From Syntrophobacteraceae bacterium (GTDB lineage Bacteria; Desulfobacterota; Syntrophobacteria; Syntrophobacterales; Syntrophobacteraceae): a stretch of DNA of 64,000 nucleotides. Each line of letters starts with the position of its first letter. The first letter of the stretch is position 1. The notes beneath the pieces are model-generated. The model searched no databases, had not been told where the DNA came from, and saw only the letters and a list, made by a program, of their open reading frames with translations. The position numbers were made by a program, and so were the translations under genes. Where the stretch lies: positions 1-64,000 of the forward strand of contig JARLHO010000112.1 of assembly GCA_031292215.1 (NCBI GenBank), in the 5' to 3' direction. Below, in pieces: positions 1,675-15,297 of this stretch.

Positions 1675-2478
1675 TTAGCCCGTCTGTTTAGGACTAAATA
1701 GACTCTGCACCCTCTTGGCCCGCTCGGACCCCGCTGCGCCAGCTTCCCCATTATCGGTTCCCGAGGTCGCCTTCACCAGTCTTTTCGCTTCCCAAAACTG
1801 CTTCATCCTCTCCGAGAGCCCGGTCTTTTGGGCATTAGCCTGTCTGGTCGCAATCAAAGATTTTGCCGCCAAAGGCGTAGCTTTGGAAAAGCCGTATTTG
1901 CTCCTGTACTCATCCGAGCTCAGACCGTGAGAGACCAGGTGTTTTTCCGTGAGCTGTCTGAACTGTGCGCCACACTCCAGGCAGATTACCTTGTCTTCCT
2001 GAATGGAACTTTGGGGCGAGACGAGTTTTTGCGACTCCCGTTTGGCCTGCCGTCTTGCTTCAACCGATTTCACAAGGTTTTCAGGCAGTCCCCTTTTCTT
2101 TGCGGCTTTCTGTCTGGCCCTGGTCAAAGATTTCGCAGTAAGAGGGGTCCCTGCCGTGAATCCATATTTTTTCTTATATTCTTTGGCGCTCAAGCTGTGT
2201 GAATCAAGATGTAACTTCGTAAGCTGCCTTAGCCCGACCCCGCATTCCAGGCAGATTATTTTATCGTCCTGGATCGAATGCTCCGGTTTAAGAGGCGGAG
2301 CGGGATGGGGAGCCTCAATTTCACTGGGCTCGATTTCGCGGGACTCGGCAATGTAGAGTTCATGCAGGGCGCCGAAAACCTGCCGAAGAGATGAGCTGAT
2401 TTCAAGGGCGCTCATAGGGTTGCGCGATACTTGGGTTTGTACGATTTCCGATGCGATTTCGACAAGGTTTTTCGTCAT
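1675..2478 (-). CDS. MucR/Ros family transcriptional regulator with two zinc-finger domains
   Basis: This 267-residue protein is about twice the usual MucR length (140-150). After an N-terminal helical segment (TKNLVEIASEI to about residue 55) come two tandem MucR units. Each has the finger C-x2-C-x9-H-x4-H (CLECGVGLRQLTKLHLDSH; CLECGAQFRQLTEKHLVSH), a YKKKYGF or YRSKYGF motif, then TPLAAKSL-like basic residues. The two units are about 60% alike, so the gene arose by internal duplication. MucR/Ros proteins bind AT-rich promoter DNA and silence or activate exopolysaccharide, motility and virulence genes. The ATG has AAGGA eight bases upstream. The 766-base AT-rich upstream region could be its own target. 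A decayed relative lies at 4565-4690. Confidence 0.85.
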   Translation of the reverse strand: MTKNLVEIASEIVQTQVSRNPMSALEISSSLRQVFGALHELYIAESREIEPSEIEAPHPAPPLKPEHSIQDDKIICLECGVGLRQLTKLHLDSHSLSAKEYKKKYGFTAGTPLTAKSLTRARQKAAKKRGLPENLVKSVEARRQAKRESQKLVSPQSSIQEDKVICLECGAQFRQLTEKHLVSHGLSSDEYRSKYGFSKATPLAAKSLIATRQANAQKTGLSERMKQFWEAKRLVKATSGTDNGEAGAAGSERAKRVQSLFSPKQTG

Positions 2479-3244: not shown

Positions 3245-3703
3245 ATGAAGGCGTGGATTATTGCCTCGGCACTGTTTGCCGTTATACTGTGGACCTCGTT
3301 GGCACATGGCGCCGGTGGCGATGCGATCCTTGGAACTTGGAATACGCAGGATCACGACACGCGGTTTGAGATCTATAAGTGCGGGATGGAATATTGCGGG
3401 AAGATTTCGTATCTGCGCGAACCGAATTACTCACCCGCAAACAAAGACGGTCTTGCCGGCCTCCCACGGCTTGACAGCCACAATCCCGATCCTCGCTTAA
3501 GGAAACGGACCCTGCTCGGCCTGCCGCTTCTCGAGGGGTTCCGTTATAGGGGCGATAACCTGTGGGAAGGCGGAAAGATCTACGATCCGGAGGATGGCCG
3601 AAGGTATAGCTGTAAAATTTGGACCGAAGGCAAGAACCAAATGAAATTGAGGGGATATATGGGCTTTTCACTGTTTGGCCGAACGGAAACCTGGATCAGA
3701 TGA
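3245..3703 (+). CDS. DUF2147 domain secreted protein
   Basis: The 152-residue product has a cleavable signal peptide (MKAWIIASALFAVILW, with an AHGA cleavage region). A DUF2147 domain follows: ILGTWNTQDHDTRFEIYKCG, YCGKISYL, a central G-rich loop, GGKIYDPEDGRRYSCKI and a final KLRGYMGFSLFGRTETW. DUF2147 proteins are periplasmic lipocalin-like beta-barrels of unknown function, often in Gram-negative envelopes. The ATG at 3245 is preferred because GGAG lies six bases upstream and it begins the signal peptide; an upstream in-frame ATG at 3119 would bury the signal. It is monocistronic and convergent with the next gene. Confidence 0.8.
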   Translation: MKAWIIASALFAVILWTSLAHGAGGDAILGTWNTQDHDTRFEIYKCGMEYCGKISYLREPNYSPANKDGLAGLPRLDSHNPDPRLRKRTLLGLPLLEGFRYRGDNLWEGGKIYDPEDGRRYSCKIWTEGKNQMKLRGYMGFSLFGRTETWIR

Positions 3704-3756
3704 ACTCAAGAACTCGGATTGGGAAGCCGGCGTCCTTTGGTAGTTTTAAACAACCA

Positions 3757-4467
3757 TCACCATTTTTTGAGTATGGAAATACAATAACGGTGGCTTCCAT
3801 CGGGGGTCTGCTGCGCGCGCACCAGATCGAATAGATATTGATTGCGTTGATAGCTAAAAACCACCGGTTTCCGCTTATCGAGGCACAGCTTCTTTTTGTA
3901 TCCCTTTTCGATGAGATAGCAAATAGATGAAGAATCGTGGCACGACTTGTCGCTCTTGGTATTTTCATAAAGAATTATCATGAGGTTACCGTTAAACGTA
4001 GAAGTGCCTACTCCAGAGCCAACCCATACTGGTTCCAAAACCAAATACGGCGCGATGATATCCTTAAATATCTGTAAGTTGGCGGTTACATCTTTTAATC
4101 TGCCGGTGTCGATGTTGGCCGCTTTGATATCGTCTAAACATGACGTTAATTTGGAGTTAAGTGCCGCATATTTTTGGGTATAAGAATGGAGTTGTACAGC
4201 CAGATCGCTATTTTTAGAGTAAATATTGTTGTAGTCTACTTTGATTGTTTGAAATAAACTGTTAAAGTTCGCATTCTCATTTGATAAATCAGCAAGAGCT
4301 TTGTTATCGATTGAAAGTTGATTCGTCTGATTATCAATTTGCGTTTTATATTTAGCATCAAGGAGCGTATAAAATACTGAAACAGTAATAAGTGTAACGT
4401 ATACAAAAGATATAAACAAGATTAATAAGCGATAAATGGCTATCCCTTTTGTATCGTTTGTTGACAT
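3757..4467 (-). CDS. Hypothetical membrane-anchored coiled-coil protein
   Basis: I do not recognise this 236-residue protein. It has one N-terminal transmembrane segment (about residues 12-34, YRLLILFISFVYVTLITVSV). A helical, Asn/Gln/Ser-rich region with coiled-coil character follows (about 40-120), then a compact C-terminal domain with several cysteines. The topology suggests an inner-membrane anchor with a periplasmic globular domain. Base composition is clearly more AT-rich than the neighbours, which suggests horizontal acquisition. It lies alone, convergent with the DUF2147 gene. Confidence 0.6.
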   Translation of the reverse strand: MSTNDTKGIAIYRLLILFISFVYVTLITVSVFYTLLDAKYKTQIDNQTNQLSIDNKALADLSNENANFNSLFQTIKVDYNNIYSKNSDLAVQLHSYTQKYAALNSKLTSCLDDIKAANIDTGRLKDVTANLQIFKDIIAPYLVLEPVWVGSGVGTSTFNGNLMIILYENTKSDKSCHDSSSICYLIEKGYKKKLCLDKRKPVVFSYQRNQYLFDLVRAQQTPDGSHRYCISILKKW

Positions 4468-4564
4468 AATAGCTCCCTTAACCTATTTTCTTTTCGGATT
4501 GTTCCAAAAGGATCCGGGCTGTCAGGCCGTCCTTTTCTCAAGCCGCCTCGCGTCGATGCCGCAG

Positions 4565-4690
4565 TCAATAGTGAGCCCCATTATCGTCCGGGATTAAGTC
4601 TTTGTGACTGATCCGCAGGGCGCCCATAGGGGTTCGGGAGGATTGGGCCTGCGGGATTTGCGATGCGATGGGGATGATTATCTTGGCCAC
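4565..4690 (-). pseudogene. Truncated mucR-like gene (N-terminal 41 codons only)
   Basis: On the minus strand a GTG at 4690 opens a 41-codon frame. Its product (MAKIIIPIASQIPQAQSS, then RTPMGALRIS) matches the N-terminus of the two-finger MucR at 1675-2478 (MTKNLVEIASEIVQTQVS, then RNPMSALEIS). The frame diverges and stops before any zinc finger. A strong ribosome site, GGGAGG, sits eight bases before the GTG, so the stub may still be translated. It looks like a duplicated mucR 5' end. Whether the short peptide does anything is unknown. Confidence 0.65.
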
Positions 4691-4812
4691 AGGTGACACC
4701 TCCCGATGGAAGTGTAAACGAAACGTTTCTGAAAAGACGCTATTTTATCGGTTCGCTACCGGAATGCAATGGATTTTGGAGCATGTAGCGCGCGATTTTC
4801 AGTGAATCCGCC

Positions 4813-4836: not shown

Positions 4837-5139
4837 GAGCGATACCTGAGCAAGTTCATGGGACAGGGGGCGAGAGGCAAGGCGTAACCGCGGATGGGCT
4901 ATCGGCTCCTGCAGGGAACGCGATAGGCTCCCCTGACAATATCGTATCTGGAATTTTTAGCTTGCAGGAATAATGAGGACCATAGCCCCGGAATCTATCT
5001 CACAGGGCGGTTGGAGTGATATGCTATTGACAGCGGGGGGGGCTGGGCCATAATTTCGCACTGAAAAATATTATGGCCAATGGGTTGGAGGCCGATTTGG
5101 AGAATGTGCTCCCCGGGGACCGGACTTGGAGGAATAGAT

Positions 5140-6471
5140 ATGTCGCACGCAAATACACGGGATCTTGCGCTCTATGTTGTCGACCACTGGGGCGATGCCC
5201 GTCCGCACGGCTTTGATGGCGCAATTGATCGTGGTCCCGGGGATTTTCTTCCCGAACTCGAAAATCTCGAGCACATTCTTTCCTGTTGCTACCAGGCAAG
5301 TCTTATGAGGGAAGAGGATAGACCTGTTCGGTTCCGGCTCATTTTGAGGGAGCCCGGCTGCTTCGACGATAATGGCTGGCCGCCCAAAGGTCTGCATCGG
5401 CTTCTGTTTAGCGATCCGAGACCTTTTGATGAATATGAACTAAAGAGGCTCTCGCCTGCTGTGGACTTTTACCGGTCCATGATCGCCGTGAGCTATGGCG
5501 CGCAAAACCGGCTGGAGATATGGGGTATTGTACATTCCGGGTCTCGGTGGGTCCAAAATGCATATGGAGGAAAAGTGATCCCGCCGGAGTTGCCTGCCTC
5601 ACTGGTTGTTTATGTGACGGACCCCGGGCGAATAACCGTTTGCCGGGGACCTCTTACGATAGCAACGCTAAATCGTGGCCAGGTGGTGAGCCCTACACAC
5701 GAAGTCTTTGATTCCACCTGGCTTCCCGGAAATTTTGCCCGGGTTCGCTCAAGACTTTGGGGGCTGCACCTGGGGGCAAAGAAAGCAGCCCGGAAGCCCT
5801 GGGCCGATCTCGATCAAAGCATTGTAAAAACAATTGCTCAGCAGGTGGTGAGGCGAATCATCGGCTCTGTGAGAAATTCCGGACATGGCGGCACGATCCT
5901 GGTGATACCCCCGGAAACGGCCGACCATGTATTCGAGGAAAACTCCTATTTGAACATCGAATACAAGGTGAGCGACGAGGCTGGGCAAAAAAGGTTTCAG
6001 ACCCTGGTGCTCGACCTCATGAATGCTCTTGCCGAAGTGTACGGCCGCAAGGCCGGTACGGGCAAAACCGTTGGCTGGGAAGAATACGTGGCAAGCAGTG
6101 ACAAATCTCTTGCGCTCTGCGATGAGGCGGTCTTCGATCTTGCTCATTTCTTTGCGGATTTGGCCTCCGTAGACGGCGCCGTGGTATTTAGCGAGGGATT
6201 TGAATTGCTGGGCTTTGGGGCCATGATATCGGGTGGACTAAAAGGGGTCAGGACAGTGGCCAGGGCATTGGATATAGAGGGGGCTCAACGCGAAGAGGTC
6301 TACTCGGGAGGCTTTGGCGCCCGCCACCGCTCGGTATTTCGCTATTGCAACGCAGTGCAGGACGCCATTGCCATCGTCATCTCTCAGGATCGGGTAGTGC
6401 GTTTTGTAAAATGGAAAGAGGGCGTGGTTACCTATTGGGATGGAGTGGCAACAAGCATCATGGATTTTTAA
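5140..6471 (+). CDS. Protein with C-terminal diadenylate cyclase (DAC/DisA_N-like) domain
   Basis: This 443-residue protein has an N-terminal domain of about 190 residues that I do not recognise, a linker, and a C-terminal DAC-type domain (about residues 220-430). Both hallmark DAC motifs are visible: DGA at 345-347 followed by a beta-hairpin (VVFSEGFELLGFGAMI), and GARHRS with RHR at 395-397, then NAVQDAIAIVISQDRVVRFV. In DisA and CdaA these bind two ATP and form c-di-AMP. The N-terminal part is likely one of the sensor domains described fused to DAC domains in proteobacteria. I chose the ATG at 5140 because GGAGG is seven bases upstream. There are no membrane segments, so it is cytosolic. 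Catalytic activity is inferred, not proven. Confidence 0.7.
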   Translation: MSHANTRDLALYVVDHWGDARPHGFDGAIDRGPGDFLPELENLEHILSCCYQASLMREEDRPVRFRLILREPGCFDDNGWPPKGLHRLLFSDPRPFDEYELKRLSPAVDFYRSMIAVSYGAQNRLEIWGIVHSGSRWVQNAYGGKVIPPELPASLVVYVTDPGRITVCRGPLTIATLNRGQVVSPTHEVFDSTWLPGNFARVRSRLWGLHLGAKKAARKPWADLDQSIVKTIAQQVVRRIIGSVRNSGHGGTILVIPPETADHVFEENSYLNIEYKVSDEAGQKRFQTLVLDLMNALAEVYGRKAGTGKTVGWEEYVASSDKSLALCDEAVFDLAHFFADLASVDGAVVFSEGFELLGFGAMISGGLKGVRTVARALDIEGAQREEVYSGGFGARHRSVFRYCNAVQDAIAIVISQDRVVRFVKWKEGVVTYWDGVATSIMDF

Positions 6472-6613: not shown

Positions 6614-6626
6614 TGATTTTCTTGAG

Positions 6627-6700
6627 TGCGCCCAGGGTGATTCGAACACCCGACCTACGGATTCGTAGTCCGGCACTCTATCCAGCTGAGCTATGGGCGC
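6627..6700 (-). tRNA. tRNA-Arg (anticodon ACG)
   Basis: The minus strand folds as a full tRNA. The acceptor arm is GCGCCCA pairing with TGGGCGC, the D arm is AGCTCAGCTGGATAGAGT, the anticodon loop is CTACGAA with anticodon ACG, and the T loop is GTTCGAATC. The discriminator base is A and the CCA end is not encoded. ACG (wobble inosine after TadA) reads CGU, CGC and CGA arginine codons. A terminator follows and a possible promoter precedes. Confidence 0.95.
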
Positions 6701-8450: not shown

Positions 8451-8731
8451 TCCATTTCCTCTACGAGTGTAACGCTTCGCACCTGTGGCCCGCACATAAG
8501 GGGTAGAACACGCCGAAGGCCGCAAAGTCAGGCAGGGGGGGCTAGCAGATGCAGCCGGACGACCGCTTGCGCGGGTTATCCTTTGTTTTCCATAACGGGA
8601 ATTATAATACCTGACATTGGCCCGAAATCATAGCCAATCGGAAACGAAAAGGGCGGGGGGGGGGCAAAAACACAAAAGAAGCCATGCCCCGGGTTTGCCA
8701 CCCGAGGCTGTCCGATCGCAGATGTCGAATA

Positions 8732-9052
8732 CTAACGATAGCTCCAGTGTCCTGGCGCCCATCTCCCGTAAGGGGTGTAGTGGCCCGGGACCCAAAACCG
8801 GGGATAGTATTCCCGGGCGGGACGATAGTAATAGACCGGGGCCGGTGGCGGAGGGCCATAGGCCGGAGCGCAGTACGGGCAAAAAGGCGCGCCGGCGATT
8901 GCGGCCGCAGTGCCGACCGCGGCGCCCACGACCGCGAAGGGAAGCAGTAAGGGATTGCAGCCGTAACACTGCGCCTGCGCGGGCGCAGCGGGGGCGATAA
9001 TCAAAAAAGCGAGCGCCATGGCGGCCAATACCATCATCTTTTTCGTATTCAT
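8732..9052 (-). CDS. Small secreted Pro/Tyr-rich protein
   Basis: The 106-residue product has a clear signal peptide (MNTKKMMVLAAMALAFLII, then APAAPAQAQ). A hydrophobic Ala/Gly segment follows (PLLLPFAVVGAAVGTAAAIA). The tail is rich in Pro, Tyr and Trp, with WVPGHYTPYGRWAPGHW resembling YXWGXW-type repeats. Cys residues in CYGC and CPYC could form disulfides in the periplasm. Function is unknown. The start is set by a perfect AAGGAGG six bases before the ATG at 9052; longer frames upstream lack such a site. No operon partners. Confidence 0.65.
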   Translation of the reverse strand: MNTKKMMVLAAMALAFLIIAPAAPAQAQCYGCNPLLLPFAVVGAAVGTAAAIAGAPFCPYCAPAYGPPPPAPVYYYRPAREYYPRFWVPGHYTPYGRWAPGHWSYR

Positions 9053-9398
9053 TCTTTCCTCCTTGGTGTTTCGTAGACAGTTTCGAATGCAAACCTCCAC
9101 GGACAAAGGTTGAATTCACCTTGCTAAGACGAACATGGATTGGGATTAGTCTACTCCCGGCCCTTAAAAAATTTAACACCTTTACCGTATTGTTTTACTG
9201 TTTAGTCGAAGCGATAAATAAAGATCGACAGAAGGTGCGCTCCCGTGAATTCGCCCCAAAAAGGGTTGTAAGGGTGACAGGTATTCCGGTATCCTTAAAT
9301 CCCGCCAAAGTTCCTCCGGGAAAGTGGGCGGACGGTCGGCGATTGTGGGGTTTTACCCGATAGCGCAGAGCTGGATTTTTTTGCAGACGATGAGGCGT

Positions 9399-11854: not shown

Positions 11855-12823
11855 ATGGGAAATATTTTCGACGACAATAGTCTAAGCATAGGCCGAACAC
11901 CGCTTGTTCGCATCAATCGAATCACTGCGGGCATGCCGGGGATCGTTTTGGCCAAGGTAGAAGGAAGAAACCCCTCCTATTCGGTAAAGTGCCGCATAGG
12001 GGCTGCGATGATCTGGGCGGCTGAGGCCGAGGGGCGTCTTGTAAAGGGCAAAACGGATGTGACCGTAATCGAGCCTACGAGCGGCAACACGGGGATCGCC
12101 CTGGGATATGTGTGCGCGGCGAGAGGGTATCCGCTGGTGCTTACGATGCCCGATACCATGTCCATCGAGCGCAGGCGCATGCTAAAGGCCTTCGGGGCGG
12201 AATTGATCCTTACCGAGGGGGCAAAGGGTATGCCCGGGGCCATACAGAGAGCCGAAGAGATAGTCGCATCGGATCCTAAGAAGTATTTCATGCCCCAGCA
12301 GTTCACCAACCCCGCCAATCCCGATATACATTTCAAAACGACCGGCCCCGAGATTTGGGAGGACACAGCCGGGGGCGTCGATATCCTTATATCCGGGGTT
12401 GGGACCGGGGGGACCATTACCGGGGTGACCCGCTACATCAAGGGGGTTAAGGGGAAAGCCATACGAACGGTAGCGGTCGAGCCGGTTAATTCGGCTGTCC
12501 TTTGCGCCATTCGAAACGGGGAGACGCCCAAGCCCGGCCCTCACAAGATCCAGGGGATCGGCGCCGGGTTTAAGCCCGGAGTTTTGGACCTTGATTTGGT
12601 CGATGAGATAGTGACTGTTTCAAACGAGGAATCGGTTGAAATGGCGAGGCGTTTGCACCGGGAAGAAGGGATCACGTGCGGGATTTCGAGCGGCGCGGCG
12701 ATGGCTGCGGCTGTTCGGGTGGCGGCCCTTCCCGGGAGCAGGGACAAGTTGATCGTTGTCATTCTCCCCGATGCGGGAGAACGCTACCTGTCGAGCGTTT
12801 TATTCGAAGGTATCGACCCCTGA
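11855..12823 (+). CDS. cysK: Cysteine synthase (O-acetylserine sulfhydrylase)
   Basis: The 322-residue protein is a fold-type II PLP enzyme of the CysK/CysM family. It has [11 protein letters not shown] at the N-terminus and a substrate loop with [14 protein letters not shown]. The PLP phosphate-binding glycine run is [10 protein letters not shown], and a late [11 protein letters not shown] motif follows. The PLP lysine is in the segment SYSVKCRIG. It makes cysteine from O-acetylserine and sulfide. The start at 11855 follows GGAGGAGG by about six bases; an earlier ATG at 11831 has only a weak site. Its place right after a cysteine desulfurase links cysteine supply to sulfur transfer. Confidence 0.9.
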
Positions 12824-12833
12824 GAGGGACCTT

Positions 12834-13046
12834 ACAATTACCCACACGTGCGCTCACCTATCTCTTTTTGCAAAGTTGCAAATAAGGGGGGCGAGCGAGC
12901 CCAGCCGGTCCATGCGCGTCATTGCAAGCGGCTGGAGAGTAAATCCCCCCAACCCCCCTTTGCAAAAAAGGGGGGCGATATCGGGCCAAGCCCCTTTATT
13001 GGGAGTCTCCGCTAAGGGGTAAGTGGGCCCATGTGTGGGTAATTGT
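12834..13046. mobile_element. MITE-like element with terminal inverted repeats
   Basis: This 213-base non-coding unit begins with ACAATTACCCACAC and ends with its exact reverse complement. The match extends imperfectly to about 26 bases at each end. Inside is the C/G-rich core AATCCCCCCAACCCCCC, then TTTGCAAAAAAGGGGGGCG, which recurs at least four more times in this window. No coding capacity is present. It looks like a non-autonomous miniature inverted-repeat element; a matching transposase was not found here. Confidence 0.65.
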
Positions 13047-13068
13047 CAGGAGAGGGACGGGGAGAGTT

Positions 13069-13656
13069 TTATGTCGCCTCTCCTGTTTCTTCTTCCAGCC
13101 ACAAATAGTCGAGGTCGATCTCTACCTGCTCGAAAGGAGCGGCCCGGATTTTACCTTTTTTCGTGAAGGCAGTACGGTTGACCCACCGGTTGGAAGAATC
13201 GAGTTCGAACACTTCGACCGTTTTGAGGTTCGGATCGATCAGCCATGCGTGGAGTACCCCCTGTAGAGCGTAAATGGCCATTTTTTCAATGCGGTCGTAG
13301 CGCGCCGTGCCAGGGGAAAGGAGCTCGCGCACCCAATCCGGAGAAATGGAAATCCAGTTCGATTGTGTCGTTCGCGGAAATCGCTCCTTTTTCCAGCCGG
13401 CAAGGTCGGGAACCAGGAGGTGCTCCCCCAACATGATCTCAGGTTCGTAGAGGAGGATCCATCCGCCGGGTCCTCCGCCCTCTCCTAACCGGTAAGGTGG
13501 AATTAACTTGCCGCTAAGGACCGCAGCCACATGGGAATGTCGTGACGATGGCCGGGGAGTGGCTATAAGCTTCCCGTTTACGATCTCGCCGATCATGTTG
13601 TCCGGGATGGTGAAAAGGTCTTCATAATCGGCTTTTTTTGATGCCGTATGCGACAC
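13069..13656 (-). CDS. Uma2 family endonuclease-like protein (DUF820)
   Basis: The 195-residue product has the Uma2 pattern of the PD-(D/E)XK nuclease-like superfamily. It shows YEDLFTIPDNMIGEIVNGKLI, PRPSSRHSHVAAVLSGKL, EPEIMLGEHLLVPDLAGW, and WVRELLSPGTARYDRIEKMAIYA. Uma2 proteins are widespread, often in multiple copies near mobile DNA; their role is not established. I set the start at GTG 13656, where AGGAG is seven bases upstream; the longer ATG frame lacks a site. It is flanked by MITE-like repeats and is about 55% alike to the intact Uma2 gene at 56749-57327. Confidence 0.75.
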   Translation of the reverse strand: MSHTASKKADYEDLFTIPDNMIGEIVNGKLIATPRPSSRHSHVAAVLSGKLIPPYRLGEGGGPGGWILLYEPEIMLGEHLLVPDLAGWKKERFPRTTQSNWISISPDWVRELLSPGTARYDRIEKMAIYALQGVLHAWLIDPNLKTVEVFELDSSNRWVNRTAFTKKGKIRAAPFEQVEIDLDYLWLEEETGEAT

Positions 13657-13805
13657 GATAAGGCTCCTCGCTCCAGAGGTTCGGCCTGAGCGGGCAAATA
13701 ACAATTTAGTCCTAAAACCTCACTGAGGCAATGGGTCCTTTCTCGCGACTTCCAGGGTGACAGGCGCTGGTCCGGAAACTTCTTGTCGGGCACGATAAAA
13801 CTCTT

Positions 13806-14120
13806 ACAATTACCTACACATACGTACCTACACATGCGCCCGCTTTTTATCCGTGCTGTACGAACAGACTCGAAACCTCCCGCAACCCCGCTTTGCAAAC
13901 TTACAATTACCCACACATACGTCCGCCTATCTCCTTTTGCAAAGTTGCAAATAAGGGGGGCGAGCGAGCCCAGCCGGTCGGTGGGCGTCATTGCAAGCGG
14001 CTGGAGAGTAAATCCCCCCAACCCCCCTTTGCAAAAAAGGGGGGCGATCGAGCCAAGCCCCTTCATGCGGGTCAGTGCTAAGGGGGGGATCGAGGCAAGC
14101 CTCTTCGTGCGCGTCATTGC
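13806..14120. repeat. Partial and nested copies of the MITE-like repeat
   Basis: Two left ends (ACAATTACCTACACATAC at 13806 and ACAATTACCCACACATAC at 13902) are followed by the C/G-rich core at 14004-14048 and short degenerate tandem repeats. No right end is recognisable. Between the left ends, 20 bases at 13851-13870 are identical, in inverted orientation, to 38778-38797. The tract probably reflects repeated insertion and slippage between a Uma2 gene and cheB. Confidence 0.6.
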
Positions 14121-14223
14121 TAAAGGGGGGGGGAGCCGAGCCCCTTCTTGCGAGCCCGGTAGAGTGGGTACACGCATCACCGTGCCCAACGCCCCCTCAC
14201 GATCAGGGTTTTCGAATGGATCG

Positions 14224-15297
14224 CTAGTTTATCCGCCGGCAGATTCTTAATACCTCCCCGGCGATTTGTTCAAGGGAGACGATGCGGTCCACGGCCCCTT
14301 TTTTAATCGCCTCACAGGGCATGCCGAACACTACGCAGGACTTTTCATCCTGAGCGATGGTAAAGGCGCCCGACTCTTTCATTTCCGCCATGCCTTTGGC
14401 GCCATCGTCGCCCATGCCCGTCATGATGACGCCCACGCTGTTTTTCCCGGCATAAAGGGCGGCCGAGCGAAAAAGAACGTCCACCGAAGGGCGATGACGG
14501 CAGACGGGCGGTCCCTCCCTGATTTCGACCAGGTAGCGCGCGCCGCTGCGCTTAAGCAGCATGTGATGGTTACCCGGGGCTATCAGCGCTCGCCCCCTCA
14601 TCAGGATATCGTTATTTTCCGCCTCTTTTACGGAAATCCGGCACATTGCGTCCAGCCGTTTTGCAAAAGCCCCCGTGAAATGCTCCGGCATGTGCTGGAC
14701 GATCGCTATCGCCGGACAATCGGAAGGAAGCGATTCCAAAAAAACGGCTAACGCTTCGGTCCCTCCGGTGGATGCGCCCACCACGACCACCTTTTCGGTC
14801 GTATCCATCACGGCTGCCGTTTTGGGCCTGGCGATAACGACGTCGGCGCACAGTTTGGGAGCGACTTTGCGCACTTCGCCACCTCCCCCGGGCGCAGCCC
14901 TCGATGCGGCCTTTACGGCATCGCAGATCCGCGTCCTGGATTTTTCCAGGAATTGTTTGACGCCCACCCCCGGCATTTCGACTATTTCGACCGCGCCGTG
15001 TTCGAGGGCCTTTAGCGCCGCGTTGGAGCCGCGTCCGGTAAGACTCGAACAAATTACAATGGAGATGGGATGCTGGGCCATGAGCTTTTTAAGAAACTCG
15101 ATGGCGTCCGTGCATTCCCTTTCGACATCCAAGGTAATTACGTCCGGGATTTCGCCCTTTAGCCTTTGGACTGCAGTAATCGGGTCCGAGGCCGTAGCCA
15201 AGACCTCGATCCGCTCGTCCGAGGACAAAATGTCCTTAAGGGTCTGGCGGACCACGGCGGAACCATCGACGATCAGCACCTTGATCTTTTTGTTCAA
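14224..15297 (-). CDS. cheB: CheB-type protein-glutamate methylesterase with divergent receiver
   Basis: The 357-residue protein has a receiver domain (1-125), a linker, and a CheB esterase domain. Esterase catalytic residues are all present: Ser176 in GASTGG, His202 in VQHMPEHFT, and Asp297 in MTGMGDDGA. It removes methyl groups from receptor glutamates. The receiver is unusual: the acidic pair is D11-G12 instead of D-D, and the sequence after phospho-acceptor D57 ([14 protein letters not shown]) lacks the usual EMPRMDG. Metal binding and phospho-activation may therefore be weak. It is the last gene of the chemosensory operon, just after cheR. Confidence 0.9.

Follow-up and report, generated by a model that had tools for sequence, protein, structure and literature searches.

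The window analysed here, a stretch of 64,000 nucleotides from a Syntrophobacteraceae bacterium, contains a gene whose product carries the hallmarks of the DAC domain of c-di-AMP synthases in its C-terminal half. The locus raises the question of whether this protein makes c-di-AMP, and what its N-terminal half does. Work on c-di-AMP centres on Gram-positive bacteria. An original prediction, made from the sequence alone, had placed the gene in a deltaproteobacterium-like genome, as befits a Syntrophobacteraceae-type member of the Desulfobacterota, and had described a stand-alone DAC-type protein with an N-terminus of no nameable family.

The CDS of this DACNV-DAC protein lies at positions 5140-6471 of the forward strand, on which all coordinates are given unless noted. 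It is an ORF of 443 aa with an ATG at 5140 and a stop at 6471. A ribosome-binding site, GGAGG (5128-5132), lies 7 nt 5' of the ATG, while an alternative in-frame start at 5080, which would give a longer ORF, has none. A putative sigma70-like promoter (5027-5054; TTGACA-16-CATAAT, 11/12 match) was picked up by consensus scan alone. On the 3' side of the gene there is a tRNA-Arg on the opposite strand (6626-6700). The neighbours are genes for a DUF2147 protein, a 236-aa ORF without assignment and an ABC1-type kinase; with such flanks the gene is apparently monocistronic, and no c-di-AMP partner adjoins it. As had been predicted, neither a phosphodiesterase nor a known c-di-AMP receptor is among the flanking genes. 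Orthologues are under purifying selection (dN/dS about 0.08-0.19). Searches of NCBIfam, PADLOC and the PDB (phmmer) gave no family for the full-length protein, the sole PDB match by phmmer being a chain named b-iTHR-110 (E 0.092). Elsewhere in the window, a 267-aa tandem ROS/MUCR regulator containing two MucR-type stretches is encoded at 1675-2478 (minus strand). At 12756-14250 there are overlapping ORFs with recurring short phrases, one of 14 protein letters with a reverse-strand counterpart, a pattern that suggests an intergenic repeat array.

The DGA (residues 345-347) and RHR (395-397) motifs, with a hairpin between them, are where the original prediction had put them, and the structural model bears out a DAC-type C-terminal domain. 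In the AlphaFold model of the 443-aa protein (mean pLDDT 79.6), the predicted catalytic DAC fold spans about residues 225-439 (5812-6456). Model residues 191-441 have DisA (4yxm) as best match (Z 12.0, 136 residues, rmsd 2.8), followed by CdaA chains at Z 9.6-11.3. The strong matches are DAC chains only, unrelated chains giving Z 2.7 or less. Since this region matches both DisA and CdaA at Z 9.6-12.0, the motifs are not a chance finding.

Active-site residues were compared with those named for Listeria CdaA (PMC7288161) and surveyed in 42 sequences. The equivalent of the GALI motif is GGTI (250-253; 5887-5898). The DGAhh motif is present as D345-G346-A347-V348-V349 (DGA at 6172-6180), and in the model the DGA leads into a beta hairpin (347-351 and 356-363). 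The GxRHRxA motif reads GARHRSV (GARHRS, 393-398; 6316-6333), in which G and R395-H396-R397 are kept and the final A has become V. The Thr of TRHR is Ala in this protein, and mostly Ala, Thr or Ser across the 42 sequences. The (V/I)SEE consensus reads ISQD (SQD, 415-417; 6382-6390), with the Ser kept and Asp at the position of the metal-binding Glu, so that the metal residue is still acidic. In the survey, D345 and G346 are conserved in 100% of sequences, R395 and H396 in 98%, S415 in 98% and D417 in 93%; the second Arg of RHR is variable, and many relatives have Q, H, N, S or C at that position. The strands equivalent to GALI and DGA are separated by a stretch of 83 residues (258-340; 5911-6159), about 50 more than in a canonical DAC. 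The Pfam DAC model gives this protein 19.2 or 21.3 bits against a cut-off of 27, which is a search convention. It matches 40 of 40 sampled family members. Together with their frame neighbours, some relatives reach 27.6-29 bits. Judged by its sequence, the DAC domain is divergent, given the 19-21 bits against 27, the insertion of about 50 residues and ISQD for (V/I)SEE. Parts of the family could have little or no catalytic activity, because Thr is changed to Ala and SEE to SQD, and the second Arg varies.

The N-terminal part does belong to a nameable family, contrary to what had been predicted. A profile search found the Pfam domain DACNV (PF21751), a putative DAC-associated sensor, at residues 37-132 (5248-5535; E 7.1e-31), N-terminal to the DAC fold at 225-439, with 106.7 bits against a curated cut-off of 27. 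The N-terminal half was also modelled alone, from an alignment of 40 N-terminal halves with no DAC domain included (pLDDT 79.5, pTM 0.79). Its residues 38-183 (5251-5688) adopt a DAC-like fold in this model, probably that of a degenerate DAC, and cover CdaA 8-145. The model was compared by VIA-align with the 1000 chains ranked highest by Foldseek, 992 of which aligned, and 67 of these 992 gave a Z of 2 or more. Among the matches listed, all are DAC structures (110-120 residues, rmsd 3.2-4.2), with Z 6.6-7.6, where 7.6 is middling by the tool's calibration and within a range that unrelated folds can reach. Foldseek by itself returned only insignificant, mixed matches for this half, so its DAC likeness rests on VIA-align and on profile tests.

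The secondary-structure elements of the N-terminal half, as we read them, come in the same order as those of the C-terminal half. Helix 40-54 pairs with 227-247, strand 65-69 with 251-256, strand 86-95 with 271-276, and helix 98-107 with 322-341. Strands 113-119 and 125-132 pair with 347-351 and 356-363, helix 136-142 with 394-405, and the last strands, 155-161, 164-169 and 172-178, with 410-414, 420-426 and 429-434. Profile comparison of DACNV with a merged DAC profile aligned 79 columns, from the helix preceding DGA through the last strands, with a score of 25.2 (P 0.0021), weak but in register; the best null scores were 17.7 for 80 column shuffles and 17.8 for 36 unrelated real or reversed windows. 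In this alignment the DACNV sequence VTDPG is set against ISQDR, so that the position of the metal Asp is Pro in DACNV, and both DGA and RHR are absent from this half. The Pfam DAC model matched 0 of 40 N-terminal halves, and in single-family comparisons DACNV against CdaA alone was not clearly above shuffles. DACNH, which is akin to DACNV by overlapping Pfam matches and by hhalign (P 3.5e-4), likewise gave no clear sequence signal above shuffles against DAC. Matches to DAC structures only, in-register profile similarity and missing catalytic motifs suggest that DACNV is probably a degenerate DAC, an ancestry for which the predicted fold match to DAC chains and the weak profile similarity are the basis. 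We thus lean towards regarding DACNV (and, by homology, DACNH) as a catalytically dead DAC and not a separate sensor fold. This DAC-like fold is not implied by the Pfam match and is new here; with it, the family would probably be a tandem of pseudo-DAC and DAC. No description of a degenerate DAC regulator was found in the literature searched.

The protein is a member of the catalogued but uncharacterised DACNV-DAC family (PF21751 + PF02457). It has the same architecture, with DACNV ahead of a DAC that carries DGA and RHR, and shows no essential difference from these proteins: identity is 62-82% to congeneric and confamilial orthologues and about 31-32% to Hymenobacter plasmid proteins. A DACND-DACNH-DAC protein of the same genome (L003) likewise places sensor domains N-terminally to a DGA-bearing DAC, its DACNH being distantly related to DACNV, but it differs by an additional DACND domain, a DAC that lacks the large insertion, and RFN in place of RHR. 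CdaA (DacA) shares the DAC fold and most active-site residues; it differs in having N-terminal membrane helices and no DACNV, and the CdaA of this genome is a fusion with YbbR domains. The transmembrane helices found directly before the DAC in the CdaA class are absent from our protein, whose N-terminus is DACNV, alpha/beta in the model. DisA, the source of the best fold match (Z 12.0), has an N-terminal DAC and a C-terminal DNA-binding part, whereas here the DAC is C-terminal and ends the protein. DacZ/CdaZ, the archaeal type (L002 in this genome), is likewise a soluble DAC, but its N-terminal PK_C-like fold (PMC6741144) is not DACNV.

In the papers of the literature searched neither the name DACNV nor an assay of any DACNV protein was found; NCBI names the plasmid relatives 'putative sensor domain DACNV-containing protein'. 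The named relatives are proteins of Syntrophobacteraceae, of other deltaproteobacterial MAGs, and of Hydrogenedentota, Planctomycetota, Eremiobacterota and Myxococcales. DACNV is above the cut-off in 16 of the 56 genomes of the class, a sample of 395 genomes of the phylum has it in 20, and two Hymenobacter plasmids carry DACNV proteins. In the window's family the tree shows two subclades, an RHR type that includes the window gene and an RHN/RHH/RHQ type, which are present together in two genomes (G048 and G049). No conserved neighbour genes were found for the window-type clade. A sister DACNV clade that has lost the second Arg of RHR (L028:7807-11168, L032:7127-12783) has a conserved small ORF ahead and, at some loci, a STAS-domain protein and HlyD/RND-type genes nearby, unlike the window-type clade. 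These neighbours were rejected as partners of the window gene, those loci being a different gene.

The description 'stand-alone' holds for the operon and fails for the genome, which has three further DAC proteins. The first (L001, G000:C95, about 3283-4794, minus strand) is a CdaA-type DAC of 504 aa with two YbbR (CdaR-like) stretches. DAC frames of about 480-530 aa occur in nearly all genomes of the class, which suggests that the CdaA-YbbR fusion is class-wide. The second (L002, G000:C60, about 8600-9200) is a small DacZ-like (archaeal-type) DAC with DGA and with RHM for RHR; similar proteins of about 200-290 aa recur in many genomes of the class. The third is the DACND-DACNH-DAC protein mentioned above (L003, G000:C163, about 12960-14440, minus strand), and DACNH is found in 28 of the 56 genomes. 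The genome also encodes two PgpH-like phosphodiesterases (7TM-HD proteins) and an NrnA-type DHH-DHHA1 protein. It has one c-di-AMP (ydaO-type) riboswitch (L083, G000:C17:5954-6084, minus strand; 92.5 bits), which precedes an AA_permease_2 ORF (APC-superfamily permease) encoded on the same strand. Within the class, DAC proteins occur in 55 of 56 genomes, PgpH-like 7TM-HD proteins in 55 of 56 and the riboswitch in 15 of 56. DACNV and the riboswitch are not associated in the window's family (both in 9 genomes, DACNV only in 5, riboswitch only in 5, neither in 7). The product, which had been left open, is less so than claimed: because the genome has other DACs, PgpH-like phosphodiesterases and a riboswitch, c-di-AMP is the expected product, and the window protein would be an accessory source of it.

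Taken together, we favor, with a probability of about 0.7, a soluble accessory c-di-AMP synthase whose DACNV half is probably a degenerate regulatory DAC. DACs work in pairs, the DGA Asp of one subunit serving the ATP on the other (PMC6741144). The DAC domain (about 225-439) would most likely dimerise face to face and join two ATP to form c-di-AMP; Asp345 would act on the ribose, the phosphates would be held by the GARHRS loop and Ser415, and Asp417 would stand in for the usual metal-binding Glu. The DACNV half (about 38-183) would have retained the fold without the catalytic motifs, becoming the regulatory half. This dead half may bind adenine nucleotides (ATP, AMP or c-di-AMP) and signal to the live half; alternatively, it may compete for or shape the dimer face, holding the live half inactive until released. 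Such regulation would be comparable to that by degenerate GGDEF or pseudokinase regulators. The c-di-AMP formed may add to a pool that the class-wide CdaA synthase and the PgpH-like phosphodiesterases maintain and that the riboswitch upstream of the APC-type permease reads.

Several other explanations were weighed. DACNV could be an alpha/beta sensor unrelated to DAC that resembles it by chance or convergence, which would leave the protein an ordinary DACNV-DAC synthase. The failure of the Pfam DAC model on all 40 N-terminal halves, the lack of a significant Foldseek match and a top Z that is middling by the tool's calibration agree with this, and we regard it as a tentative, rather unlikely alternative, as the 67 of 992 chains at Z of 2 or more are, among the entries listed, all DAC structures, the helix and strand order repeats that of the C-terminal half, and the in-register profile similarity exceeds both the shuffle and the unrelated-window nulls. 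More doubtful is a C-terminal DAC that only binds a nucleotide (ATP or c-di-AMP) as a receiver, the protein being an effector of a signal made by CdaA. A divergent domain under the Pfam cut-off, pocket changes of Thr to Ala and Glu to Asp, paralogues that lose the second Arg and a CdaA already in the genome would fit a receiver. Yet conservation across phyla is 93-100% for the DGA Asp and Gly, the RH, the Ser and the acidic metal residue, a pure receiver would need neither the metal acid nor the in-trans catalytic Asp, and the protein has no output domain.

If the domain is instead a working enzyme, a different product, another cyclic dinucleotide or a linear nucleotide, seems very improbable. 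The altered pocket and the insertion that separates two active-site motifs would leave room for it, as would the lack of a DACNV protein assay in the literature searched, but c-di-AMP is what characterised DACs make (PMC7288161, PMC6741144), and the c-di-AMP riboswitch and the PgpH-like enzymes are present in this genome. We give least credit of all to a role in an anti-phage or conflict system, which the patchy spread over phyla, the paralogues and the two Hymenobacter plasmids might evoke: PADLOC gives no match for the protein, there is no effector-like neighbour and no conserved partner in the window-type clade, and the phages searched gave no match.

The preferred reading, an accessory synthase with a regulatory DACNV half, is set in a desulfobacterial class where DAC and PgpH-like proteins are nearly universal, and in which one genome has four DAC architectures and a riboswitch. 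DACNV itself occurs in Desulfobacterota, Myxococcota, Planctomycetota, Hydrogenedentota, Vulcanimicrobiota and on Hymenobacter plasmids. If DACNV is a degenerate DAC, this sensor domain would gain a testable class of ligands, the adenine nucleotides, and a mechanism to test, the control of DAC dimerisation. The finding of a DACNV-DAC protein is thus sound and less exotic than first proposed, and what deserves to be followed up is that DACNV is probably a pseudo-DAC.
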